64,000 nucleotides of DNA. It comes from Halobacteroidaceae bacterium (lineage in GTDB: Bacteria; Bacillota; Halanaerobiia; B1SED10-174). Numbering within the stretch: position 1 is the first letter of the stretch; each line of letters opens with the position of its first letter. A model generated the notes under the pieces. That model saw nothing but the letters and a program-made list of their open reading frames with translations. It did no database searches and was not told the DNA's origin. A program made the translations under genes and the position numbers. The stretch lies in the NCBI GenBank assembly GCA_003554585.1, contig PWGV01000025.1:1-64000 (forward strand). Reading direction: 5' to 3'. This document shows, piece after piece, positions 3,529 through 63,934 of the stretch.

Positions 3529-3551
3529 AAGAAAAGAATTGAATAAGAAAG

Positions 3552-3660
3552 TCTTCAGGGCGGGGTGGAAGTCCCCACCGGTGGTATAGCCCACGAGCTC
3601 AAATAAGAGCTGACCCGGTGCAATTCCGGGGCCGACGGTGAAAGTCCGGACGGAAGAAGA
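3552..3660 (+). ncRNA. FMN riboswitch (RFN element)
   Basis: The conserved core of the RFN element is present: CAGGGCGGGGTGGAAGTCCC, then ACCGGTGGTATAGCCCACGAG, then GACCCGGTGCAATTCCGG, and the closing GCCGACGGTGAAAGTCCG with GACGGAAGAAGA. The aptamer ends at about 3660 and is followed by a terminator and the riboflavin transporter gene. This fits transcription attenuation when FMN is abundant. Confidence 0.96.
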
Positions 3661-3675
3661 CGATTTTTTATGCCG

Positions 3676-50649: not shown

Positions 50650-51852
50650 TTGCTTCAGGGGAAAACTATTGTTATTGGTGTCAGCGGAGGAATTGCAGCT
50701 TATAAAGCGGTTGATATTGTAAGCCGAATGGTAAAACAGGGAGCCAAAGTCAGGGTTATTATGACCAAAGCTGCTTGCGTGCTGGTTCGTCCCATTACCT
50801 TCCAGAGTATAACCCATCAGCCTGTGGCCACGGAAATGTTTTCCGAACCTGCCAACTGGAATATTCAGCACATTGACCTGGCAACAGAAGCTGATCTTAT
50901 CCTTGTTGCTCCTGCGACTTACAATATTATTGGAAAAGTAGCCAGTGGCATAGCCGACGATCTTCTGACCACAACCATCTCGGCAACAAAAGCCCCCGTT
51001 CTTTTTGCTCCAGCCATGAATACCCGGATGTATGAAAATCCAATTCTCCAGGCTAATCTCAGGAAGCTGCAGGAAATGGACTATTCCTTCATTGAGCCGG
51101 AAGTGGGACGATTGGCTGAAGGGTCTTCGGGTAAGGGCAGGCTTGCGGATAACGAAATTATAATTGAAGAAGTAATCCGGGCCTTAACCCCCAAGGATCT
51201 TGCCGGAATGCGTTTGCTGGTCACTGCTGGCCCAACCCAGGAGTTTATTGATCCGGTAAGGGTTTTGACCAATCCTTCATCAGGAAAAATGGGTTACGCT
51301 ATCGTTCAGGCAGCTTTGCGCCGCGGGGCCCAGGTAACCCTGATTACCGGGCCTACGCATTTAAAATCTCCCTGGGGGTTAAATGAACTGGTAAGGATTT
51401 CAACTACAAGCGAAATGCTGGAGGCTGTTGTAAAAAGGTGTTTGGACCACGATGTAATAATAAAAGCCGCTGCCCCGATGGATTTTCGCCCCAAAGAAAC
51501 TTTTAAAATGAAAGTGAAAAAAGAAGAGAAAAAGGAACTTGTTTTGGCTTTAGAGCGCAATGAAGATATTCTCGAAGCAATCGGTCGGGAAAAAGGTGAC
51601 CGAATTCTGGTAGGTTTTGCCGCTGAAACCGAGAATATTGTTGCCAATGCCCAGGAAAAATTAAAAAGAAAATATCTGGATTTTATTGTCGCCAATGACG
51701 TTTCCGCGGAGGGCTCCGGGTTTGGAGTTGATACAAATCAGGCAACCCTTGTTTTCCCCGATTCTTATGAAAACCTACCTCCCGCAACCAAATTTGATCT
51801 GGGAAACAGGATCCTTGATGAGGTGCAGATACTCAGGCGTGAAATCAAATAA
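50650..51852 (+). CDS. coaBC: Phosphopantothenoylcysteine synthetase/decarboxylase
   Basis: This 400-residue bifunctional enzyme of coenzyme A synthesis has an FMN decarboxylase half (VIGVSGGIAAYKAVDIVSRM, IQHIDLA with the catalytic His, APAMNTRMYENP) and a CTP-dependent synthetase half (LLVTAGPTQEFIDPVRVLTNPSSGKMGYAI). TTG 50650 follows GAGGAGGGGG. A hairpin terminator ends the unit. Confidence 0.96.
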   Translation: MLQGKTIVIGVSGGIAAYKAVDIVSRMVKQGAKVRVIMTKAACVLVRPITFQSITHQPVATEMFSEPANWNIQHIDLATEADLILVAPATYNIIGKVASGIADDLLTTTISATKAPVLFAPAMNTRMYENPILQANLRKLQEMDYSFIEPEVGRLAEGSSGKGRLADNEIIIEEVIRALTPKDLAGMRLLVTAGPTQEFIDPVRVLTNPSSGKMGYAIVQAALRRGAQVTLITGPTHLKSPWGLNELVRISTTSEMLEAVVKRCLDHDVIIKAAAPMDFRPKETFKMKVKKEEKKELVLALERNEDILEAIGREKGDRILVGFAAETENIVANAQEKLKRKYLDFIVANDVSAEGSGFGVDTNQATLVFPDSYENLPPATKFDLGNRILDEVQILRREIK

Positions 51853-51854
51853 AA

Positions 51855-51880
51855 AGAGCCTTTTGGGCTCTTATTATTTA
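51855..51880 (+). terminator. Terminator after coaBC
   Basis: The stem AGAGCC/GGCTCT around a TTTTG loop is followed by TATTATTTAT. The T run is broken, so the strength is moderate. Confidence 0.65.
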
Positions 51881-51910
51881 TGTATACTTTTTAGAGATAT
51901 TATGAAGGAG

Positions 51911-51939
51911 TTATTCTTTTTTTGTAAAAATTGTATAAT
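51911..51939 (+). promoter_or_regulatory. Possible promoter of the kor-mcm-mmd block
   Basis: A perfect TATAAT lies at 51934-51939. The hexamer 17 bp upstream, TTATTC, is a poor -35. It is the only promoter-like site between coaBC and the ferredoxin gene. Confidence 0.4.
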
Positions 51940-51974
51940 TGTTTGCAAAAGTTGAAGCGAAAGAGGTGTAAAGG

Positions 51975-52184
51975 TTGCCAAAAAAAGGGAAGGTTGCGAT
52001 CGACGAATCCTGGTGTAAAGGTTGTGAAATTTGTGCAACTTTCTGTCCCAAAAAAATTTTGGGACTTAGAAGTAATGGGAAAATGGAAGTAAAGGATCCG
52101 GAAAACTGTATTGCCTGCAATCAATGTGTTCTCCGCTGTCCCGATTATGCCATAAAAGTTGAGGTGATTGAGAATAATGACTGA
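51975..52184 (+). CDS. korD: 2-oxoacid:ferredoxin oxidoreductase, 4Fe-4S ferredoxin (delta) subunit
   Basis: This 69-residue ferredoxin-like subunit has two [4Fe-4S] motifs, CKGCEICATFCP and CIACNQCVLRCP. It passes electrons from the catalytic subunits to ferredoxin. The start is a TTG after GAGGTGTAAAGG. It is the first of four subunit genes; the korA ATG overlaps its end. Confidence 0.93.
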   Translation: MPKKGKVAIDESWCKGCEICATFCPKKILGLRSNGKMEVKDPENCIACNQCVLRCPDYAIKVEVIENND

Positions 52185-53313
52185 GAGAGTAAAGCTAATG
52201 CAGGGTAATGAAGCCTGCGTTGAAGGAGCTCTTGACGCTGGAGTTCGCTTTTACGCGGGATATCCGATAACTCCTTCCTCGGAGATTGCGGAAGATTTTG
52301 CCGCTAAACTTCCACCGGTGGGCGGGAAGTTTATCCAGATGGAAGATGAAATTGCCAGTATGGCTGCAGTTGTTGGAGCCTCCCTTGCTGGCAAAAAAGC
52401 AGTGACTGCAACCAGCGGTCCTGGTTTTTCCCTCAAACAGGAAATAATAGGTTTTGCCAATATGATTGAAGCCCCCTGCGTGATTATGAATGTGCAGAGG
52501 GCTGGCCCGAGCACTGGATTGCCGACGTCTCCAGCTCAAGGAGATGTGATGCAGGCTCGCTGGGGAACCCACGGTGATCACCCTGCCCTTGTGCTTTGTC
52601 CGAACTCCGTTACCGATGCTTACCTTTTAAGCTTCCAGGCTGTGAACTGGGCTGAAAGGTTTCGGACCCCGGTAATTTTATTGCTCGATGAAACAATTGG
52701 CCACCTGCGAGAAAGGGTTATCCTTCCCCGAAAAGAAGAAATGGTTATTAGCAACAGAAAGCAACCCCATGGGGCATCGGAATCCTTCCAGCCCTATGAT
52801 ATTACTGACGAGGATTTGATCCCTCCCCTGCCCCCATATGGTAGTGGTTATCGCTTCCATACAACGGGGTTATACCATGATGAGACTGGTTTCCCTTCAA
52901 ACAGGCCCGAGGTTACCAGCAGGTTATTAAACCGTCTCCACGAAAAAATTGATAAGTACAAAGAAACTCTGTACCTTTATGAAACTTATGGTTTGCGCCA
53001 GGCCAATCAATTGATAATCAGCTACGGTGCGTCAGCCCGTTCGGCCAAGGCAGCCTGGAGAATCGCGCGGGAAAAAGGTCTTTTAGTTGGGCTTTTAATC
53101 CTGAAAACGATCTGGCCCTTCCCCGAAGAAATTGTCGTCCAGGCGGGACATGACAAGAACAATATAGTGGTTGCTGAAATGAATAGAGGGCAGTTGATAG
53201 GTGAAGTGGAGAGAGTAATGGATAAAAGAGTTCCTATTCGTGGAGCTCAGCGGGCTGATGGAGTCCTCATTACTCCCGAACAGATACTTGCAAAACTGGA
53301 GGGGGTTAATTAA
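52177..53313 (+). CDS. korA: 2-oxoacid:ferredoxin oxidoreductase, alpha subunit
   Basis: This subunit of about 378 residues begins KLMQGNEACVEGALDAGVRFYAGYPITPSSEIAEDF, the classic start of KorA. VQRAGPSTGLPTSPAQGDVMQARWGTHGDHP is the other family motif. It forms, with KorB, an enzyme that oxidises a 2-oxoacid (2-oxoglutarate most likely) to its acyl-CoA, reducing ferredoxin. ATG 52177 is preferred to TTG 52168 in the track, as GAGGTG is 11 bp ahead. A 2-oxoisovalerate specificity cannot be excluded from sequence. Confidence 0.93.
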   Translation: MTERVKLMQGNEACVEGALDAGVRFYAGYPITPSSEIAEDFAAKLPPVGGKFIQMEDEIASMAAVVGASLAGKKAVTATSGPGFSLKQEIIGFANMIEAPCVIMNVQRAGPSTGLPTSPAQGDVMQARWGTHGDHPALVLCPNSVTDAYLLSFQAVNWAERFRTPVILLLDETIGHLRERVILPRKEEMVISNRKQPHGASESFQPYDITDEDLIPPLPPYGSGYRFHTTGLYHDETGFPSNRPEVTSRLLNRLHEKIDKYKETLYLYETYGLRQANQLIISYGASARSAKAAWRIAREKGLLVGLLILKTIWPFPEEIVVQAGHDKNNIVVAEMNRGQLIGEVERVMDKRVPIRGAQRADGVLITPEQILAKLEGVN

Positions 53314-54129
53314 ATGGAAATGGAAAAGTTTTTTCGCGTAGATAAACTTCCCCATATCTGGTGCCCGGGTTGCGGTCATGGTTCTGTAATGATGAGTATT
53401 GTTAAAGGTATAGACAAGATGGGTTGGGATCCCAAAAAAGTAGCGGTTGTCTCGGGGATAGGTTGTTCCTCCCGCGCCCCCGGTTATATGAATTTCAATA
53501 CCCTGCATACAGTTCATGGCCGGCCAATAGCTTTTGCCACCGGAATAAAATTAGCCAATCCAGAATTAAAGGTGATTGTGATAACAGGGGATGGAGATGG
53601 TGCCGCTATCGGAGGAAACCACCTCATCCATGCCTGCCGTCGAAATATTGGAATTAATGTGGTTTTGTTTAACAATCAAATTTATGGAATGACCAGTGGC
53701 CAGTATTCACCAATGACCCCTGAAGGGTCAATGGCCACAACATCACCTTACGGTAATATCGAACCACCTTTTGACCTGTGTGAACTCACCAAATCTGCAG
53801 GGGCAAATTTTGTTGCACGGGGAACGGTATACCACCTTCCCAAGCTGGATTCATATGTGGAAAAAGCCTTTTCTAAAGAAGGTTTTTCTTATGTAGAAGC
53901 AATAAGCCAGTGTCCAACTTATTATGGTCGCCGCAATAAAATGAAAACACCGGTGGAAATGCTGGAGTGGCAGAAGGAAAATTCTATTGATATCAAAAAA
54001 GCCAAGGACCTGGATCCCGAGGAATTAAAGGGTAAAATAATTACGGGGATATTTGCAGAAGGAGATGGCGAAGAGTATACAGTTCGGTATGACCAATTAA
54101 TTAACAGTGTGCGGGGGGGTAAAGAATAA
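53314..54129 (+). CDS. korB: 2-oxoacid:ferredoxin oxidoreductase, beta (TPP) subunit
   Basis: This 271-residue thiamine-diphosphate subunit has LPHIWCPGCGHGSVM at the N terminus and GDGDGAAIGGNHLIHACRRNIGINVVLFNNQIYGMTSGQYSP, the TPP/Mg motif GDGD...NN. It starts immediately after the korA stop. The stop overlaps korC (TAATG). Confidence 0.95.
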   Translation: MEMEKFFRVDKLPHIWCPGCGHGSVMMSIVKGIDKMGWDPKKVAVVSGIGCSSRAPGYMNFNTLHTVHGRPIAFATGIKLANPELKVIVITGDGDGAAIGGNHLIHACRRNIGINVVLFNNQIYGMTSGQYSPMTPEGSMATTSPYGNIEPPFDLCELTKSAGANFVARGTVYHLPKLDSYVEKAFSKEGFSYVEAISQCPTYYGRRNKMKTPVEMLEWQKENSIDIKKAKDLDPEELKGKIITGIFAEGDGEEYTVRYDQLINSVRGGKE

Positions 54130-54704
54130 TGGCCAGGTATGAGATCAGGCTTAGCGGCGCGGGAGGCCAGGGTTTGATCCTGGCAGGGATCATTCTATCC
54201 GAGGCTGTGGTCCGGTTTACAGATAAAGAAGTTGTTCAAACCCAGTCTTATGGGCCCGAAGCCCGTGGAGGAGCCAGTAAGGCTGAAGTCATCATTTCTG
54301 ATGAAGAAATAGACTATCCCCAGGTTAACAAACCCGATTTTCTCCTTGCATTAACCCAGGAAGCATATAATAAATATAACAGGGATCTCAAGGAATACGG
54401 GATCATGGTAGTCGATGAAAGGGTAGATATTGCCACGCGTGGCGGCCCTACTTACGTCGTACCAATTCAAAAGTTAACCCAGGAAAAACTGGGAACCAGG
54501 ATGGTAGTTAATGTAGTTTCCCTTGCTCTTTTTAATAAACTGCACGAAGTGGTAAAAACAGATGAATTAAAAGAAGCTGTTCTGGAAAGAGTGCCCAGGG
54601 GAACCGAGGATTTAAACCAAAAGGCCCTGGAACTTGGTGAAGAGCTGGCCGAGAACCTGAACCAATACAAAATAAAAAGCAAGGAGGAGGAGGAAGAAGA
54701 ATGA
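54129..54704 (+). CDS. korC: 2-oxoacid:ferredoxin oxidoreductase, gamma subunit
   Basis: This 191-residue subunit has [21 protein letters not shown] and [21 protein letters not shown], both hallmarks of the gamma domain. The C terminus ends in a run of glutamates (KSKEEEEEE). The DNA encoding it is a repeated purine tract that also forms the ribosome-binding site of the next gene, with an ATGA overlap. Confidence 0.94.
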
Positions 54705-56368
54705 AGGACAAGGACCGGCAGGAAAAAATTCAAGAAAAACTGAAAAAATGGCGGGAAGGTCCTTTTGCCAAGTTCCAGCAAAGAGGCTGGAATAAAGCCT
54801 ATACCTCCTATCGCGAACCGGTAAAAGAAATCTATACTCCCCTGGATTTTTCTGATGACGAATACCTTGAAAAGACCGGTTTTCCAGGCCAGTTTCCCTT
54901 TGTCCGCGGTGTTTATCCAACTATGTACCGGGGAAGGCCCTGGACAATGCGCCAGTACGCGGGTTTTGCCAGCGCCGAGGAATCCAATCGGCGTTATCGC
55001 TACCTTCTGGAACAGGGTCAGACCGGACTTTCCGTTGCTTTTGACCTGCCAACTCAGATTGGACTTGATTCAGATCATCAACTTGCCGATGGGGAAGTGG
55101 GCAAGGTTGGTGTCCCGATTGATTCCCTTGCCGATATGGAAATTCTTTTTGATCAGATTCCCCTGGATAAGGTCAGTACTTCTATGACTATTAACTCTCC
55201 AGCAGCAGTTCTTTTGGCAATGTATATAGCACTGGCGGAAAAGCAGGGGGTTTCAGCTGATAAATTGAAGGGAACCATTCAAAATGATATTTTGAAAGAA
55301 TATTTTGCCCGCGGTACTTATATCTTTCCCCCGGGTCCATCTTTGCGGTTGATCACAGATATCTTTGCCTACTGTTCACGGGAATTACCAAACTGGAATA
55401 CAATCAGTATTTCCGGTTATCATATCAGGGAAGCAGGAGCAAATGCTGTCCAGGAACTTGCTTTTACTCTTGCTGACGGAATTGCCTATGTAAAGGCTGC
55501 TCTCCAGGCAGGGTTAAAAGTTGATGAATTTGCCCCCAGGCTTTCTTTTTTCTTCAATGCGCAGATGAATCTCCTGGAAGAAGTGGCCAAATTCCGAGCT
55601 GCCCGCCGATTGTGGGCAAAAATTATGGAGGAAAAGTTTGGAGCAAAGAACCCCAAGAGTAAAATGCTTCGTTTCCACACCCAGACTGCAGGGGCTTCTC
55701 TAACTGCCCAGCAAGCGCAAAATAATATCGTAAGGGTTACCATCCAGGCCCTGGCAGCAGTTCTTGGTGGAACGCAATCCCTGCATACCAATTCCTATGA
55801 TGAAGCATGGGCCCTGCCCAGCGAGGAATCAGTACGGATTGCTCTGCGGACCCAGCAAATTATTGCCAATGAGAGCGGTGCAACCTCAACTGTAGATCCG
55901 CTGGGAGGCTCTTATTATGTGGAAAGCCTTACCGATGATATTGAAAAAAGGGTAGAAGAGTACCTGGATAAAATTGAAGAAATGGGCGGGATGGTAAAGG
56001 CAATTGAAAAAGGTTATGTTCAGCGAGAAATCCAGAAAAGCGCATATGAAATGCAGAAAAGAGTTGAGCAACAGGAAGATATAGTTGTAGGAGTAAATAA
56101 ATTTGCCCAGGAAGAAGTTGCTCCGACTGATCTCCTGGAAGTTGATCCCCAGATGGAAAAAGAACAGATTAAGAAACTAAAAAATAGCAGGGAAAAAAGA
56201 AATGAAAAAGAAGCTCAAAAGGCACTGGAAAAGCTTAAGAACACCGCCGAAGCAGAAGAAAACCTTATGCCAGCAATTATTGAGGCCGTCAAGGCTTATG
56301 CAACTCTCGGGGAAATTTGTGAAGTTCTGCGTTCAATTTACGGTGAGTACCAGGCTCCCACATTTTAA
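54701..56368 (+). CDS. mcmA: Methylmalonyl-CoA mutase, large (catalytic) subunit
   Basis: This 555-residue TIM-barrel subunit interconverts succinyl-CoA and methylmalonyl-CoA using adenosylcobalamin. [51 protein letters not shown] and [24 protein letters not shown] are the family motifs. The B12-binding domain is missing from its C terminus and is encoded by the next gene, giving the split form. It overlaps korC by 4 bp, tying the mutase to the enzyme that makes succinyl-CoA. Confidence 0.96.
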
Positions 56369-56385
56369 AGTTAGGAGGCAGAAAC

Positions 56386-56784
56386 ATGGCCGAGAATAAA
56401 ATAAGAGTATTAATTGCCAAACCGGGTCTTGATGGGCATGACCGCGGAGCTAAAGTTGTGGCGCAGGCCTTACGGGATGCGGGCATGGAAGTTATTTATA
56501 CCGGTCTTCGCCGGACTCCCGATCAGATAGTTTCCGCTGCAGTTCAGGAAGATGTCCAGGTAATCGGCTTGAGTAGCCTTTCTGGAGCCCATAACCACCT
56601 CTTCCAAAAAGTTGCAGAACTGCTCCAGGAAAAAGGAAACGAAGATATCCTTCTGATTGGTGGAGGGATTATCCCTGAGAAAGACCGCAAGCGACTTGAA
56701 AAAATTGGATTTGATCGGATCTTCTCTCCAGGCACTTCCACGGAAGATATCGTTTCCTATATAAAGGAAAAAGTTAATGGGTAA
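56386..56784 (+). CDS. mcmB: Methylmalonyl-CoA mutase, cobalamin-binding subunit
   Basis: This 132-residue Rossmann-like domain has the cobalamin signature DxHxxG in [13 protein letters not shown] (about 13-25), followed by [12 protein letters not shown] and [11 protein letters not shown]. It completes the split mutase. ATG 56386 follows TTAGGAGG, and the gene overlaps meaB by 8 bp. Confidence 0.96.
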
Positions 56785-57727
56785 AAAGGTAGATGAACTG
56801 GCCCGGGGGATAATTCAGGGCGAGGAAAAAGCTCTTGCTAAAGGTCTAACCTTCGTGGAAAATAGAAGCAAGGGTTACCGAGAACTTCTAGATTCCATTT
56901 ACCCCGAGGTCAAACCCTGTCCAATCTGGGGTCTTACTGGAGCTCCGGGTGTGGGGAAAAGCACCATTACAAATTACCTGGTAGATAGTTTGGCCAGCTG
57001 TTCTGAAAGAATTGGAGTTTTAGCCGTCGATCCCACCAGTCCCTTTTCCGGAGGAGCTATTCTCGGGGACCGGGTTCGAATGATGGATTTGGCCGGAAGA
57101 GAGGGGATCTTCATTCGCAGCATGGCCTCCCGCGGGGCTTTAGGTGGACTCAGCCCTGCAATAATGGACGCAGTTGCTTTGTACCAGGCTTTTGGGGTTG
57201 ACAGGATTCTGGTGGAAACTGTTGGTGTTGGGCAATCGGAAACAGATATTGTATCTCTTGCGGACACTGTTGCAGTAATTATGATGCCGGGAACAGGCGA
57301 CGATGTTCAAACAATAAAAGCTGGTCTGCTGGAAATTGGTGACATTTTTGTTGTAAATAAGGCTGATCTGGAGGGAGCGGAGACCCTCGCCGGGTTATTG
57401 CAAAGTATGCTTTCTTCCCGGAACGAGGATGAAAAATGGGTTCCCCCGGTAATTAAACTGGTTGCCAGCCAGGGACAGAATCTTGATACCTTGCTTGAGA
57501 AATTCCAAGATCACCAGAAAACCCTGGAGAAATCAGGCCAAAAAGAAAAGAAAGAAAAGATGAGGAATGAAATGGCTCTTAAGATGCACCTGCAGGCTCG
57601 CTTTCAGGACCTGTATCTTGGGCCCCTCCTAGGAACAGAAGACTGGGAAAAGGCCATAAAATCTATTAACAGGCGGGAAAAGTCACCTGCTTACTGGGCA
57701 GAAAAATTGATTTCCGGGAGTGATTAA
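56777..57727 (+). CDS. meaB: Methylmalonyl-CoA mutase-associated GTPase MeaB
   Basis: This 316-residue G3E-type P-loop GTPase loads and protects the mutase's cobalamin. The P-loop is [13 protein letters not shown] (about 52-64), with [32 protein letters not shown] and NKAD. It overlaps the mutase small subunit gene by 8 bp. It is the type called ArgK in older annotations. Confidence 0.96.
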
Positions 57728-57728
57728 A

Positions 57729-58121
57729 GTGCACATAGACCACATTGGTATTGCTGTAACTGATATTGAAGAGGCAGCGAAAGTTTATAAACTTATGGGT
57801 TTGGAAATTGTAAATATTGAAGAGGTTCCTTCCCAAAAAGTCCGGGTTGCCATGTTACCCCTAGGAGAAAGCAAGATCGAACTTTTAGAACCAACTGACC
57901 CGGAAAGTCCCATTCAGAAATTCCTGGACAAAAAAGGAAGCGGAATTCACCACCTTGCGGTTTCGGTTGATGATGTTGCAGCCGAACTGGCTAAATTAAA
58001 AGAGCAAGGGATCAGGTTGATTAATGAAGAACCAGTTCCGGGGGCCGGAGGAGCCCTGATCGCCTTTGTCCATCCTAAGGAAACCCAGGGAGTTTTATTA
58101 GAATTATGCCAGCATGAGTAG
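57729..58121 (+). CDS. mce: Methylmalonyl-CoA epimerase
   Basis: This vicinal-oxygen-chelate protein of about 130 residues interconverts (R)- and (S)-methylmalonyl-CoA. HIDHIGIAVTDIEEA at the N terminus, GSGIHHLAVSVDDV in the middle and GVLLELCQ at the end carry the metal ligands. The track start GTG 57720 overlaps GGGAG; GTG 57729 has a spacer of 8 and is preferred. Confidence 0.95.
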   Translation: MHIDHIGIAVTDIEEAAKVYKLMGLEIVNIEEVPSQKVRVAMLPLGESKIELLEPTDPESPIQKFLDKKGSGIHHLAVSVDDVAAELAKLKEQGIRLINEEPVPGAGGALIAFVHPKETQGVLLELCQHE

Positions 58122-58133
58122 AGGAGAGTGACT

Positions 58134-59681
58134 ATGAAAGCAAAAAAAGGAGAAACCCTGCAGTCACTAAAGGAAAGGGCGAAACTCGGCGGGGGTAGTG
58201 AAAAAATAAAAGCCCAACATGAAAAAGGAAAGTTAACAGCCCGGCAACGGTTGGAAAAATTATTGGATTCCGATTCTTTCATGGAAATTAACCTTTTTAC
58301 TTCCCACAGGGCTACCGACCTGGGAATGGAAAGCCGGGAAGTTCCCGGAGAAGGTGTAGTAACAGGTTCGGGGACAGTTAATGGGCAACTTGTATTTGTT
58401 TTTGCCCAGGACTTCACTGCAATGGGTGGAACTCTTGGGGAAGCACACGCCAAGAAAATTGTAAAAATAATGGATCTGGCCCTGGAGAATGGGGCCCCAA
58501 TAATTGGGTTGAATGATTCAGGTGGGGCGAGGATCCAGGAGGGTGTGGACGCCTTAGACGGTTATGGGGATATTTTCTATCGCAACACACTGGCCTCTGG
58601 AGTAATCCCCCAGATTGCTGCAATTCTTGGTCCCTGTGCAGGAGGAGCGGTTTATTCTCCAGCCCTTATGGATTTTACTTTTATGGTTGAAGGAATAAGC
58701 CAGATGTTTATAACCGGTCCTCAGGTGGTCAAAGCTGTTACAGGGCAGGAAGTGTCCTCTGAAGAACTTGGTGGGGCAGCAACTCACAATCAACTCAGTG
58801 GAGTTGCCCACTTTAATCATGCTGATGAAGAATCCTGTCTGAACGCTATCCGGGAATTATTGAGTTATTTACCGCCAAATAATATGGAAAATCCTCCGGA
58901 AATCGCAACAGATGAACCACCTGCTCCAGGACCCCAGGGAATTGCGGATATTATCCCTGAAGATACCAGGCGACTATATGATATGAAAGAGGTAATAAGA
59001 CTTATTGTCGATGGAGGATACTTTTTTGAAGTGCACCCCTATTTCGCCCCGAATATTATTGTTGGTTTTGCCCGCCTGGGCGGGAAAGCTGTGGGTATAG
59101 TTGCCAATCAACCAAAGGATAAAGGAGGAGTTCTGGATATCGATTCCTCTGATAAAGCTTCGCGTTTTATCCGATTTTGTGATGCTTTCAATATTCCCCT
59201 GGTAAATCTGGTTGATGTTCCCGGCTATCTTCCCGGGACCGATCAGGAACACGGAGGAGTAATTCGCCACGGGGCGAAACTCCTTTATGCATATTCTGAA
59301 GCCACCGTTCCCAAGGTAACCTTAATTACTCGCAAAGCTTACGGGGGAGCTTTTCTGGCCATGTGCAGCCAGGCTCTGGGTGCGGACTTTGTTTATGCCT
59401 GGCCCAATACAGAAATTGCTGTTATGGGTCCCGAGGGAGCGGCGAACATTATTTACCGTAAAGAGATAAAAGCGGCAGAAAATCCTGAAGAGGTAAGGCA
59501 GGAAAAAATTAAAGAATACAGGGAGCTTTTTGCCAATCCCCTTGTGGCTGCCCGACGGGGCATGATTCACGATATCATCGAGTATGAATCAACTCGGGCC
59601 CGTTTAATTTATTCTCTGGACCTTTTATCCTGCAAAAAGGTTTCCCGGCCGCCCAGAAAACACGGTAATTTTCCGGTTTAA
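58134..59681 (+). CDS. mmdA: Methylmalonyl-CoA decarboxylase/propionyl-CoA carboxylase, carboxyltransferase subunit
   Basis: This carboxyltransferase of about 515 residues transfers CO2 between methylmalonyl-CoA and biotin. It has two crotonase-like halves with LGEAHAKKIVKIMDLALENGAPIIGLNDSGGARIQEGVDAL and YGGAFLAMCSQALGADFVYAWP. Next to the membrane decarboxylase genes it most likely acts in the decarboxylating direction. ATG 58134 is 8 bp after GAGGAG and is preferred to GTG 58128. Confidence 0.95.
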   Translation: MKAKKGETLQSLKERAKLGGGSEKIKAQHEKGKLTARQRLEKLLDSDSFMEINLFTSHRATDLGMESREVPGEGVVTGSGTVNGQLVFVFAQDFTAMGGTLGEAHAKKIVKIMDLALENGAPIIGLNDSGGARIQEGVDALDGYGDIFYRNTLASGVIPQIAAILGPCAGGAVYSPALMDFTFMVEGISQMFITGPQVVKAVTGQEVSSEELGGAATHNQLSGVAHFNHADEESCLNAIRELLSYLPPNNMENPPEIATDEPPAPGPQGIADIIPEDTRRLYDMKEVIRLIVDGGYFFEVHPYFAPNIIVGFARLGGKAVGIVANQPKDKGGVLDIDSSDKASRFIRFCDAFNIPLVNLVDVPGYLPGTDQEHGGVIRHGAKLLYAYSEATVPKVTLITRKAYGGAFLAMCSQALGADFVYAWPNTEIAVMGPEGAANIIYRKEIKAAENPEEVRQEKIKEYRELFANPLVAARRGMIHDIIEYESTRARLIYSLDLLSCKKVSRPPRKHGNFPV

Positions 59682-59693
59682 GGAGGAAGATAG

Positions 59694-60020
59694 ATGCCTG
59701 ATTTAACTGCTGGTTGGGAAATAATAATCCTTGGGACGGGGACTGTTTTTATTGCTTTAATTTTCCTCGGTTTGGTAGTTGTGGGGTTAGAGAAAATTTT
59801 TGGCCCTAAAACTACTCCCCCTTCTCAGGATCAACCCCTAACCGAACAAGATGAGGAAGATAAAACTGAGCCCCCCGTTGCGGCTATAACTGCCGGTATC
59901 CACGCTTACAAGGGCGCTGGCAGGTTCAAAATAATCAGGATTAGCCACCGCGGTGAAGAGTGGGCCCGCTGGGGCCGCCAGGAACTTATTAATAATAAAC
60001 CAGAAAGGAAAGGAAGTTAA
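59694..60020 (+). CDS. mmdD: Na+-translocating decarboxylase small membrane subunit (OadG/MmdD-like)
   Basis: This 108-residue protein has one N-terminal membrane segment (WEIIILGTGTVFIALIFLGLVVVGLEKIF) and a short charged, Pro-rich tail. The layout and GxGTVFxxLxxLxxVVxxLxKIF pattern fit the gamma/delta subunits that hold the decarboxylase together. Sequence is weakly conserved in this family, so the call leans on context between the carboxyltransferase and biotin carrier. ATG 59694 follows AGGAGG. Confidence 0.82.
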   Translation: MPDLTAGWEIIILGTGTVFIALIFLGLVVVGLEKIFGPKTTPPSQDQPLTEQDEEDKTEPPVAAITAGIHAYKGAGRFKIIRISHRGEEWARWGRQELINNKPERKGS

Positions 60021-60028
60021 GACCAGGG

Positions 60029-60412
60029 ATGAAAAAATACAGGATTAGAGTAAATGGTGAGGAGTACGAGGTTGAGGTTGAGGAAATTAATGAAGGTGGG
60101 GAAAAACCGACAACTTCTCCCAACAAACCCCCAGCTTCTTCTGCCCCTGCGGCCCCAAGAGCTCAGGAGAAAAAGAAGGCGGTGCAAAGCAGTGGCGCGC
60201 CCGGGGAAATAAAGGCACCAATGTCCGGAAAGGTTTTGAAAGTAAGCGTGAAAACAGGAGATGAAGTTACAAAAGGTCAGGTGCTTATGATGCTCGAAGC
60301 AATGAAAATGGAAAATGAAATTACCGCTAACACCGAAGGAAAAGTTAAAGAAATAAAAGTAAATGAAGGGGATTCCGTTAATCCAGGAGATATTCTTGTA
60401 ATTTTGGAGTAG
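60029..60412 (+). CDS. mmdC: Biotin carrier protein of methylmalonyl-CoA decarboxylase
   Basis: This 127-residue protein has a short N-terminal fold ([20 protein letters not shown]), a Pro/Ala-rich linker (about 28-58) and a biotinyl domain with the biotin lysine K93 in LEAMKMENE. It shuttles the carboxyl group from MmdA to the membrane subunit. ATG 60029 has CCAGGG ahead. Confidence 0.94.
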
Positions 60413-60423
60413 GGGGAAAATTA

Positions 60424-61554
60424 ATGGAACTTGCAATTGATAGTTTCTGGCAGAGCACAGGTTTTGCCAATATGACCTGGCAGCAAATGGTTATGGTTGC
60501 AGTGGCCGGGGTTCTATTATACCTTGCGATAAAGAAAAAATATGAACCTCTATTGCTCATCCCGATCAGTTTTGGGGTAATAATGGTTAATTTGCCACTG
60601 ACCGGAGTTATGGCACCACCCCAGGGAGGAGAGGTAGGGGGTCTATTGTATTACCTTTACCAGGGAACCAGTCTGGGGATTTATCCTCCCCTAATTTTCA
60701 TTGGTGTTGGGGCCTGGACGGATTTTGGGCCCCTGCTTGCCAACCCAAAAACCATGCTGCTCGGCGCAGCAGCCCAGTTTGGGATTTTTACCACCATATT
60801 GGGTGCTCTTGCTGTTGGTTTTCAACCCTTCCAAGCTGGAGCCATAGGGATAATAGGTGGGGCAGATGGGCCAACTGCAATTTTTACCGCGGCGAATCTA
60901 GCCCCAGAACTTTTGGGCCCCATAGCCGTTGCCGCATATTCTTATATGGCCCTGGTTCCTGTGATCCAGCCGCCGATAATTAAATTATTAACTAATGATA
61001 CCGAAAGAAAAGTTAGAATGGGCCAGTTAAGGGAGGTTTCCCAAAAAGAAAAGATAATTTTTCCTATTGCGGTAACCATTTTAACAGGGTTGCTTATCCC
61101 GGCTTCCATACCTTTAATTGGTTCTTTAATGTTTGGTAACCTGTTAAAGGAATCCGGTGTTGTGGACCGATTGCTTCAGACTGCCCGGGATTCTCTGGTT
61201 AATATTGTAACCATCTTTTTAGGCCTGACCGTTGGAGCAACTGCAACCGCAGAAAATTTCCTGATTTGGGAAACGATCCAGATTATTTTATTGGGCCTTT
61301 TTGCTTTTTCTGTCGGGACTTTTGCAGGTGTGGTTTTGGGTAAAATTATGTACCAGTTGACCAGAGGAAAAATAAACCCCCTTATTGGTTCTGCTGGGGT
61401 GTCTGCAGTGCCAATGGCGGCTCGGGTTAGTCAAAAACTTGGTTTGGAAGCAGATGGAGACAATCACCTTTTAATGCATGCAATGGGACCTAATGTGGCC
61501 GGCGTTATTGGTTCGGCCGTAGCCGCTGGAGTAATATTATCTCATTTTGGCTAG
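60424..61554 (+). CDS. mmdB: Na+-translocating decarboxylase beta subunit (carboxybiotin decarboxylase)
   Basis: This 376-residue membrane protein with about ten segments decarboxylates carboxybiotin and exports Na+. [43 protein letters not shown] holds the essential Asp region, and [19 protein letters not shown] the second Na+-site region, both as in OadB/GcdB/MmdB. ATG 60424 follows GGGGG. It is the last gene of the tightly packed block; a mini-ORF follows. Confidence 0.96.
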
Positions 61555-61568
61555 GAAAGGAGGTTTTA

Positions 61569-61595
61569 ATGGAGATTTTTTGGCTTAAATTTTGA
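61569..61595 (+). other. Eight-codon mini-ORF with perfect ribosome-binding site
   Basis: AAAGGAGG (61556-61563) lies 5 bp before an ATG that opens MEIFWLKF and then stops at TGA. It sits between mmdB and the glutamate dehydrogenase gene. It may be a leader peptide or the remnant of a lost gene; nothing proves translation. Confidence 0.3.
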
Positions 61596-61635
61596 GGAAT
61601 TTTAGTAATTAATAAAAGAAGAGGTGAATTAATTA

Positions 61636-62883
61636 ATGGAAGAAAATCTTAACGTCTATGAAATTGTTCAACAGCAGCTAGCAGTAGCGGCTCGGGAACT
61701 GGACTTGGATCCAGGAGTTCATGACCTATTAAAAGAACCGATGCGGGTTTTCACCTGCTCAGTCCCGGTAAGGATGGATGATGGTTCTGTAAAAGTTTTT
61801 ACTGGTTATCGCTGTCAGCATAATGATGCTCTAGGACCAACCAAAGGTGGACTTCGGTTCCATCCTGATGTTGCAATAGATGAAACAAAAGCCCTTGCTG
61901 CCTGGATGACCTTTAAATGTTCCCTTGTTGGAATACCATATGGTGGGGGAAAAGGTGGAGTCCAGGTTAATCCCAAAGAACTATCCCGCAGGGAAATCGA
62001 GAGACTGTCCCGTAACTTTATCCGTGCCCTTGCTCCAATAGTTGGTCCGGATAGAGACATTCCTGCCCCTGATGTTTATACCAACCCTCAGATAATGGCC
62101 TGGATGATGGACGAATACAGCCAGTTAAAAGGGGTAAACGTCCCCGGGCTATTGACCGGTAAGCCGATTATTCTGGGCGGTTCTGAGGGTCGGGAAGAAG
62201 CTACTGCACGGGGTTGTGTAATCGTGGTGCGCGAAGCTGCGAAAGCAATTGGCCTTGACCTTAACGGGGCTACGGTTGTAATTCAGGGTTATGGGAATGC
62301 AGGAAGTGCTGCCGGTCGCCTCTTAAAAGAGCTTGGAGCCAAGATAATTGCAGCCAACGACTCTTCAGGTGGAGTTCATAACCCCGATGGGTTTGATCCA
62401 ATTGAATTGAAAGAACATAAGGATCGGGTGGGCTCCGTAAAAGGTTTCCCCGGTTGTAACGAAATATCCAACAAGGACCTTTTAGAGCTAGAGTGTGATA
62501 TTCTGATTCCCGCAGCTCTGGAGAATGTTATTACTACCAAAAATGCTGCCAATATTAATGCCAAAATAATTGGGGAAGCAGCCAACGGACCGACAACTCC
62601 CAAAGCCGATGAAATCCTTGATGAAAGAGGAGTTCTGGTTCTTCCTGATATTCTGGCCAATGCCGGTGGAGTTACTGTCTCTTACTTTGAATGGGTCCAG
62701 AACCTGATGAATTTCTACTGGTCTGCTGAAGAAGTAAAAGAAAAACTGGAAAAAATAATGGTCAAAGCTTTTAAAAATGTATATAACGCCTACCTTGAAA
62801 ATGATGTTAACATGAGAATTACAGCATACATGGTTGCAATTAAACGCCTTGACGAAGCAATGCGAGTCAGGGGCTGGGTATAA
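61636..62883 (+). CDS. gdhA: Glutamate dehydrogenase
   Basis: This 415-residue Glu/Leu/Phe/Val-family dehydrogenase interconverts glutamate and 2-oxoglutarate plus ammonia. PTKGGLRFHPDV and KCSLVGIPYGGGKGGV hold the substrate and catalytic lysines, RDIPAPDVYTNPQIMAWMMDEYS follows, and VVIQGYGNAGSAAGRLL is the NAD(P) fold. The length is that of the hexameric GDH common in clostridia and Bacillus RocG/GudB. ATG 61636 follows AGAGGTG. A strong terminator follows. It feeds 2-oxoglutarate to the upstream Kor enzyme in the proposed pathway. Confidence 0.94.
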   Translation: MEENLNVYEIVQQQLAVAARELDLDPGVHDLLKEPMRVFTCSVPVRMDDGSVKVFTGYRCQHNDALGPTKGGLRFHPDVAIDETKALAAWMTFKCSLVGIPYGGGKGGVQVNPKELSRREIERLSRNFIRALAPIVGPDRDIPAPDVYTNPQIMAWMMDEYSQLKGVNVPGLLTGKPIILGGSEGREEATARGCVIVVREAAKAIGLDLNGATVVIQGYGNAGSAAGRLLKELGAKIIAANDSSGGVHNPDGFDPIELKEHKDRVGSVKGFPGCNEISNKDLLELECDILIPAALENVITTKNAANINAKIIGEAANGPTTPKADEILDERGVLVLPDILANAGGVTVSYFEWVQNLMNFYWSAEEVKEKLEKIMVKAFKNVYNAYLENDVNMRITAYMVAIKRLDEAMRVRGWV

Positions 62884-62890
62884 GAATGAA

Positions 62891-62923
62891 AAGGGTCTTG
62901 ATTAACAATCAAGACCCTTTTTT
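62891..62923 (+). terminator. Terminator after glutamate dehydrogenase
   Basis: A perfect 13-bp stem AAGGGTCTTGATT/AATCAAGACCCTT with a 3-nt loop is followed by T residues. It is one of the strongest terminators in the window. Confidence 0.95.
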
Positions 62924-62925
62924 AG

Positions 62926-63232
62926 TTGACAGTTCAAAATACCTTGTATAAGATAAATATAGGTGTTTTTAGGAAATAGATGAGGACTTTTTAATTTTAT
63001 TATTATTATGGGGGCAAGATGATAGAGGAGAACAACTTTTTTATTTCCCCCCAACCTCTGTAATCTGGGCCTAAAAACTTTCCCAGGTAATTACTGCTTT
63101 AACACATCATAAGTTTTTTTGATAGTTGGATTAAATACCTTTCCGAGAAATGACCTGCGGAATTTTTAATTTACTAAAAACTTTAAAAGGTTTTTTTCAG
63201 GGTTTTAAATAAAATGGAACAGAGGTAAAGAA
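62926..63232 (+). other. AT-rich intergenic leader before sfsA
   Basis: This stretch without a recognisable gene opens with TTGACA (62926-62931) and TATAAG (62947-62952), though the spacer is only 15 bp. A 14-codon ORF (MIEENNFFISPQPL, ATG at 63020) follows GGGGGC. AGAGG at about 63025 and CCTCT at about 63054 could pair. No known riboswitch core (SAM-I, T-box or other) was recognised. Confidence 0.35.
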
Positions 63233-63934
63233 ATGGAGTATAATAAATTAACCCCGGCAATATTGCTGGAAAGGGAAAACCGGTTTGTTGCGAAAGTAAG
63301 GGTAAGGGGGCAAACCCAACTAGCCCATGTCCCCAATACCGGTAGGCTTGAAGAACTAATGCAGCCGGGGACCAGAGTTTATTTAGAACCGATCCAGAAC
63401 AAACAAAGAAAAACTCTCTGGGACCTTGTTTTGGTCCGGGGACCAGAAAGCCTTGTTGCAGTGGATTCACGACTCTCAACCTCGCTATTCGCTGAAGCAC
63501 TTGATGGGGAAAGATTAACTGAATTTCAGGGAGCAAAAATAGAAAAAAAGGAAATTACTATTGGCAAAAGCAGGCTTGATTTTAAGCTGTGGTCTCCTGA
63601 GGGGCCGGTTTATGTTGAAGTTAAATCGGTTAACCTGGTCCAAGATGGTCGCGCCCTTTTCCCGGATGCCCCAACTGCAAGAGGAGCAAGACACATCGAT
63701 GAATTAATTGAAGTTCAGAATAACGGGGCGAGGGGGGCCTTGTTTTTTTCAGTGCAGAGAGAAGATGGAAATGTTTTTTCTCCGCACTATGAGATGGATC
63801 CCGTTTTTGGACGGAAAGTTGAAGAAGCATACAGGGCGGGGGTAATGGTCCTGGCCTACAGTTGTGAAATCAATATTCCCCAGATTATCCTGAAAAAAAG
63901 GCTCGAAGTAAAACTAAACAAAGTGGGTGATTAA
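63233..63934 (+). CDS. sfsA: SfsA family protein (sugar fermentation stimulation, nuclease-like)
   Basis: This 233-residue protein has an N-terminal OB-like domain (LLERENRFVAKVRVRGQTQLAHVPNTGRLEELMQPG) and a C-terminal restriction-enzyme-like nuclease fold with RLDFKL, VYVEVKSVNL and FPDAPTARGARHIDEL. E. coli SfsA was named for sugar-fermentation effects, but the fold points to nucleic acid binding or cleavage. ATG 63233 follows AGAGGTAAAGA. metK begins directly at its stop. Confidence 0.94.
   Translation: MEYNKLTPAILLERENRFVAKVRVRGQTQLAHVPNTGRLEELMQPGTRVYLEPIQNKQRKTLWDLVLVRGPESLVAVDSRLSTSLFAEALDGERLTEFQGAKIEKKEITIGKSRLDFKLWSPEGPVYVEVKSVNLVQDGRALFPDAPTARGARHIDELIEVQNNGARGALFFSVQREDGNVFSPHYEMDPVFGRKVEEAYRAGVMVLAYSCEINIPQIILKKRLEVKLNKVGD

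Follow-up and report, generated by a model that had tools for sequence, protein, structure and literature searches.

A block of 13 genes at positions 51975–62883 of the window (the whole 64,000-nucleotide stretch of DNA analysed here), all on the forward (+) strand, is probably an operon for catabolic breakdown of glutamate to propionyl-coenzyme A (propionyl-CoA) with export of Na+. It comprises korDABC, encoding a 2-oxoacid oxidoreductase (KOR), mcmAB for a split methylmalonyl-CoA mutase, meaB and mce for its accessory GTPase and an epimerase, mmdADCB for a putative Na+-translocating decarboxylase, and gdh for a glutamate dehydrogenase. The cassette is real, conserved and functionally coherent; it is made of known enzymes, is not unique to this genome and is probably catabolic. 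The window is positions 1–64000 of contig C43 of the source genome (G000; 2.89 Mb in 215 contigs). Two loci represent congeners, L035 (Bacillota bacterium CSSed162cmA_81) and L036 (Halobacteroidaceae bacterium B1Sed10_204); genomes of the same class match Halanaerobiales, Candidatus Frackibacter among them. Records with names like those of L035 and L036 presumably belong to soda-lake sediment metagenomes, and the host is probably an uncultured Halanaerobiales-related bacterium of soda-lake sediment origin. Uncultured Halobacteroidaceae have been reported from soda-lake sediment (PMC6146748).

In the route that we propose, whose substrates, direction of flux and Na+ coupling we infer from gene content, order and conservation, key residues and the genome complement, Gdh would convert glutamate to 2-oxoglutarate, NADH and ammonia, and KorDABC would oxidize 2-oxoglutarate to succinyl-CoA and CO2, reducing ferredoxin. 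McmAB, whose activity MeaB would maintain, and Mce would then turn succinyl-CoA into (S)-methylmalonyl-CoA. MmdADCB would transfer the carboxyl group of the latter to biotin, from which MmdB, in the membrane, would release CO2 while exporting Na+; propionyl-CoA would be left. Outside the block, propionyl-CoA would probably yield ATP via Pta/AckA or Ptb/Buk, and the Na+ gradient would drive a Na+-type ATP synthase and Na+ symport. Electrons would leave as formate (through a selenocysteine formate dehydrogenase with NuoEF-like subunits, and Rnf) or through a PhsA-like respiratory reductase.

Layout of the block

The 13 genes were identified among all open reading frames of at least 60 amino acids in 51975–62883, with family assignments checked against NCBIfam and Pfam. 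An earlier note on this DNA had described a packed korDABC-mcm-meaB-mce-mmd-gdh block, and every gene that it named was found, at that place and on that strand. Neighbouring genes overlap or are at most 20 bases apart, the sole exception being the 81 bases between mmdB and gdh, and the block is most likely a single operon. A pattern scan found a terminator-like hairpin closing coaBC, 5' of korD (51854–51872, + strand), and no terminator-like site on the + strand of the mmdB-gdh gap; a strong rho-independent terminator-like hairpin with a T-run follows gdh (62889–62921, + strand; −21.3 kcal/mol, z −4.68). Since the gap lacks such a site and the strong hairpin lies 3' of gdh, gdh may well be co-transcribed with the rest of the block.

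Assignment of the enzymes

All four KOR subunit types are present, with a YPITP motif, a thiamine pyrophosphate (TPP) domain and a dicluster ferredoxin. KorD (51975–52184) is a 2x[4Fe-4S] ferredoxin subunit with eight Cys in two clusters and a Pfam Fer4 match. KorA, the alpha subunit (52168–53313), carries YPITP, R.GPST and TGL.H, the last of which matches known 2-oxoglutarate enzymes; it scores 532.6 bits with NF006412 (cut-off 411), 394 with OorA and 274 with VorB, and its PDB matches are 1yd7, 8ys5 and 6n2n. The nearest PDB chain to KorB, the beta (TPP) subunit (53314–54129), is the beta subunit of H. pylori 2-oxoglutarate oxidoreductase, 8ys5, at 283 bits, the next best reaching 174. KorC, the gamma subunit (54129–54704), matches Pfam POR and scores 205.6 bits with NF006323, below the cut-off of 235. 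Specificity residues have been discussed for Sulfolobus 2-oxoacid:ferredoxin oxidoreductases (PMC5020499). At the position of Asp468 KorA carries Leu, the residue reported for the 2-oxoglutarate-specific H. thermophilus KorAB; a Thr of KorA likewise agrees with 2-oxoglutarate enzymes, and KorB has Arg at the Lys49 position, common to 8ys5 and 6n2n. Against these three residues stands a Met in KorB, which leaves 2-oxoglutarate a likely rather than a proven substrate of KorDABC. The genome encodes separate KorA paralogues of other kinds, POR-, VOR- and IOR-like, which belong to different families.

McmA, the large catalytic subunit of the mutase (54701–56368), scores 849 bits with TIGR00641, and the cobalamin-binding subunit McmB (56386–56784), the mutase-protecting GTPase MeaB (56777–57727) and the epimerase Mce (57720–58121) score above the cut-offs of TIGR00640, TIGR00750 and TIGR03081, respectively. 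The top-scoring PDB sequence for McmA is a 2-hydroxyisobutyryl-CoA mutase (HCM), an identity that we rejected on residues. McmA carries a Tyr corresponding to Tyr89 of P. shermanii and an Arg corresponding to Arg207, with Ala at the position of HCM Asp117; HCM has Ile at the Tyr89 site. The same Tyr and Ala are found in 113 relatives, with Arg or Lys at 207. The key residues mark McmAB as a methylmalonyl-CoA mutase.

The Mmd set is complete. It consists of the carboxyltransferase MmdA (58128–59681; PF01039, 659 bits), the small one-helix OadG/delta-type subunit MmdD (59694–60020; Pfam OAD_gamma, 40.7 bits with a cut-off of 27; TIGR01195, 35.5 against 36.05), the biotin carrier MmdC (60029–60412), matched by NCBIfam and Pfam models and bearing the biotinylation motif EAMKM, and the membrane carboxybiotin decarboxylase/Na+ pump subunit MmdB (60424–61554; TIGR01109, 504 bits; PDB 6iva, OadB), with the OadB motifs GGADGPT and MGPNVAGV. 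Each genome of the genus has one biotin carboxylase, in G000 beside accDA, and four of six module genomes from other groups gave no biotin carboxylase match. MmdA is therefore probably not a carboxylase there; we rejected propionyl-CoA carboxylase as its identity, the genome having no spare biotin carboxylase, and for the same reason favour MmdABCD as a Na+-translocating methylmalonyl-CoA decarboxylase. Gdh (61636–62883) is of the hexameric type and matches the NCBIfam glutamate dehydrogenase models. Its nearest PDB sequences are 7mfm, a glutamate dehydrogenase, and 3k8z, an NAD-specific one; further glutamate dehydrogenases, 1euz among them, score nearly as well.

Recurrence in other genomes

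The complete block, including gdh, stands in the same order behind coaBC in both congeners (L035 and L036), and one complete same-class genome (G008, locus L188) has the identical gene order, so the arrangement is not due to chance. Among 80 named loci seeded with KorA, mcmA is nearby in 14, gdh in 15 and both in 12; the linked loci include Tepidanaerobacter-type metagenome-assembled genomes (L067, L112). A phylum-wide search found a mutase match in 197 of 399 genomes. Among the best 100 mutase loci, linkage to kor occurs in 39, to both kor and gdh in 27, and to kor, gdh and mmdA in 19. These loci were ranked by how similar their mutase is to that of the window, and the fractions hold for close mutases only. 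The kor-linked mutase loci come from at least 16 family codes and show several gene orders. The earlier note had considered the linkage of kor and gdh to the decarboxylase unusual; our neighbourhood search finds it in many Bacillota families. Its enzyme identities and proposed route, on the other hand, are supported by the families, the diagnostic residues, the lack of a spare biotin carboxylase and this recurrent co-clustering.

Across loci gdh lies between korC and mcmA in 22, upstream in 8 and downstream in 9, largely clade-wise, and kor, mcm and mmd change their relative order as well. No other evidence for a functional unit is as strong as this retention of gene content despite changing order. 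Distances of the module genes are correlated (r 0.67–0.93), gdh correlating least with the others. On the KorA tree, linkage to mcm is clustered (9 changes versus 38 in shuffles), with long branches limiting the placement of anchors.

In the source genome the block is flanked by coaBC on one side and sfsA-metK-priA-def-fmt on the other, within a housekeeping run (window 50650–63934). L112-type loci have it behind recA...rny-ymdB-spoVS-like genes and a GntR regulator. The two settings indicate that the cassette occupies different chromosomal sites.

Upstream of the block, the Halanaerobiales locus L049 has genes for a 1-pyrroline-5-carboxylate (P5C) dehydrogenase (TIGR01236, above cut-off) and flavoprotein amino-acid dehydrogenase subunits, a probable proline-to-glutamate feed that favours the catabolic direction. 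L103 has homologues of these upstream genes at the corresponding position, L080 has some of them there, and P5C dehydrogenase is present in all members of the genus. Locus L041 has an additional transcarboxylase-5S/OadA-type gene.

Energy conservation and electron outlets

The earlier note had also called the module self-contained. This did not hold: the genes for releasing CoA (AckA/Pta, Ptb/Buk) and for disposing of electrons (formate dehydrogenase, Rnf, molybdopterin reductase) are at other places in the genome. The genus has Rnf, a Tat-signal PhsA-like molybdopterin reductase with an Fe-S partner and an acetate/propionate-family kinase. In G000 a selenocysteine formate dehydrogenase and NuoE/NuoF-like genes adjoin an apparent operon for an Mrp-type Na+/H+ antiporter (L313, G000:C120, 649–13783). 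We found no match to [FeFe] hydrogenase in the genus (0/5) or to [NiFe] hydrogenase in the genus and one related genus (0/6), and rejected H2 as the electron sink in this genus; electrons would accordingly pass to formate or to the respiratory reductase. Other module carriers do possess [FeFe] hydrogenase.

A second operon of G000 (L312, G000:C39, 6241–15807) groups VOR with two leucine-type dehydrogenases, a phosphate butyryltransferase, two butyrate kinases and a long regulator-like gene. It appears to be a branched-chain amino-acid fermentation operon paralleling the glutamate block, and its grouping of VOR with leucine-type dehydrogenases and acyl kinases suggests that the logic of amino-acid dehydrogenase plus oxidoreductase is repeated in the genome. 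The NuoE, Mrp and leucine-type dehydrogenase readings at L313 and L312 are partly by eye.

The congener F-type ATP synthase c subunits carry the full GQG...ES signature (L138–L140), which we take, by resemblance to the Ilyobacter type, to be that of Na+ specificity. In the G000 assembly we found only an N-type/N-ATPase-like c subunit (L142, G000:C127), the F-type one perhaps missing through assembly incompleteness.

A congener has, at L317 (G003:C13, 7528–13732), a Tat-signal selenocysteine formate dehydrogenase and Fe-S subunit directly 5' of rnfC and an rnfD-like gene, an arrangement that suggests an Rnf complex linked to formate; another rnfC is encoded elsewhere. This type of Tat-signal formate dehydrogenase was not found in G000.

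Direction of flux and alternative readings

Several observations weigh against glutamate catabolism as the role of the block. KorB carries Met at a position that is Leu in the solved 2-oxoglutarate enzymes, and the genome's own VOR also has Met. OorB and OorD are the best NCBIfam models for KorB and KorD, but KorA, KorB and KorD miss the equivalog cut-offs of OorA, OorB (330 bits against 364) and OorD. MmdA and MmdC fall below theirs as well (TIGR01117, 841 against 998.8; NF047903, 94.8 against 200), although these cut-offs are annotation thresholds rather than biological requirements, and the cut-offs of TIGR01109, for MmdB, and of the Pfam models are reached. The reactions of the block are largely reversible. 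Finally, a search for PF00285 citrate synthase (the Re-type was not searched) gave no match in 12 module-bearing or related genomes (G000–G005, G061–G066), while 13 of 14 controls gave one, so the block could serve the supply of 2-oxoglutarate. It might then run mainly in reverse, the Na+ gradient driving carboxylation of propionyl-CoA and KOR fixing a second CO2 to give 2-oxoglutarate and glutamate, for biosynthesis or in syntrophic propionate oxidation. We consider this unlikely. Formate dehydrogenases and Rnf in the genus would suit it, as would the propionate-oxidizing direction proposed for KOR in Cloacimonadota, where kor stands beside the epimerase gene (PMC13082233). Against it speak the proline-to-glutamate feed upstream of the block in L049 and the sister operon of G000, which joins dehydrogenases to VOR and acyl kinases. 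So does a difference from the mmc clusters of propionate oxidizers, which encode fumarase, succinyl-CoA synthetase and malate dehydrogenase; the block has none of these. An amphibolic cassette is no more probable: without PF00285 citrate synthase it would also run in reverse, with the Na+ gradient and reduced ferredoxin fixing two CO2 onto propionyl-CoA to give 2-oxoglutarate and glutamate. If so, one operon would both ferment and build glutamate, depending on conditions.

The Met of KorB also bears on a broader reading, in which the block is a general sink for succinyl-CoA and propionyl-CoA from branched-chain amino acids, methionine and threonine, with a multi-substrate KOR and gdh serving only to recycle amino groups. 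Solved Sulfolobus relatives indeed take both pyruvate and 2-oxoglutarate (PMC5020499). This reading is very improbable, however, given the distinct POR-, VOR- and IOR-like paralogues, the mutase and epimerase directly behind KOR, which make sense only with succinyl-CoA as its product, and the three different positions of gdh in the module, which argue for a direct functional tie. More plausible, but still doubtful, is that gdh is an independent neighbour with its own transcript and a role in nitrogen assimilation, the operon stopping at mmdB; glutamate catabolism would remain compatible with the other twelve genes. The 81-base gap and the weaker correlation of gdh distances fit such a separation, whereas the lack of a terminator-like site on the + strand of the gap, the strong one 3' of gdh, the korC-gdh-mcmA order in 22 loci and the NAD-specific enzyme among the nearest solved relatives do not.

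Comparison with known systems

Conversion of glutamate via succinyl-CoA and methylmalonyl-CoA to propionate has been reported biochemically for Thermanaerovibrio acidaminovorans and Gelria glutamica. We found no description of a kor-gdh-mcm-mmd cassette in the open literature, which leaves out most subscription papers. The alpha, beta, small and biotin subunits with their expected motifs, and the mutase-epimerase feed, resemble the MmdABCD(E) systems of Veillonella and Propionigenium as covered in part of a 2021 review of anaerobic fermentation (PMC8473912). In Propionigenium, however, succinyl-CoA is formed from succinate by CoA transfer, and here from 2-oxoglutarate by KOR. The mmc propionate-oxidation cluster of the Pelotomaculum/Desulfofundulus type likewise groups mutase, epimerase and decarboxylase subunits (PMC11206085), but it contains fumarase, succinyl-CoA synthetase, malate dehydrogenase and transcarboxylase 5S where our block has kor and gdh; none of the first three was found among the open reading frames of 51975–62883. 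The alternative mmc pathway of Cloacimonadota has kor beside the epimerase gene and combines KOR with the mutase and a Na+ decarboxylase (PMC13082233), yet that route is proposed in the opposite direction and has aspartate aminotransferase in place of a linked gdh. The glutamate to succinyl-CoA to propionyl-CoA logic has been inferred for Petrimonas mucosa, which shares GDH, KorAB, mutase and epimerase (PMC7768429); there, the genes are scattered, judging by locus tags, and a propionyl-CoA carboxylase is listed rather than a linked Na+ decarboxylase.

The part of the 2021 review drawn on here gives two routes of glutamate fermentation, via 2-hydroxyglutarate or 3-methylaspartate (PMC8473912). 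Both are amino-acid fermentations, and the former also uses a biotin-dependent Na+ decarboxylase, but they have other intermediates and yield acetate and butyrate. With respect to that part of the review, the genes described here probably underlie a third route, one that leads to propionate. Its recurrence, shuffled yet coherent, across many Bacillota families makes the cassette a genomic marker for fermenters of glutamate (and proline), whose propionate and formate would go to partner organisms in sediments and digesters. The direction of KOR, forward here and reverse in Cloacimonadota, becomes a testable question.

Other features of the window

A promoter scan was uninformative (17 found versus 16.8 expected), and base composition shows no sharp break across the block. 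The Rfam scan of the window found no RNA element close to the block; it detected a partial 5S rRNA gene (3' part) in the first 72 nucleotides and a flavin mononucleotide (FMN) riboswitch at 3547–3665.

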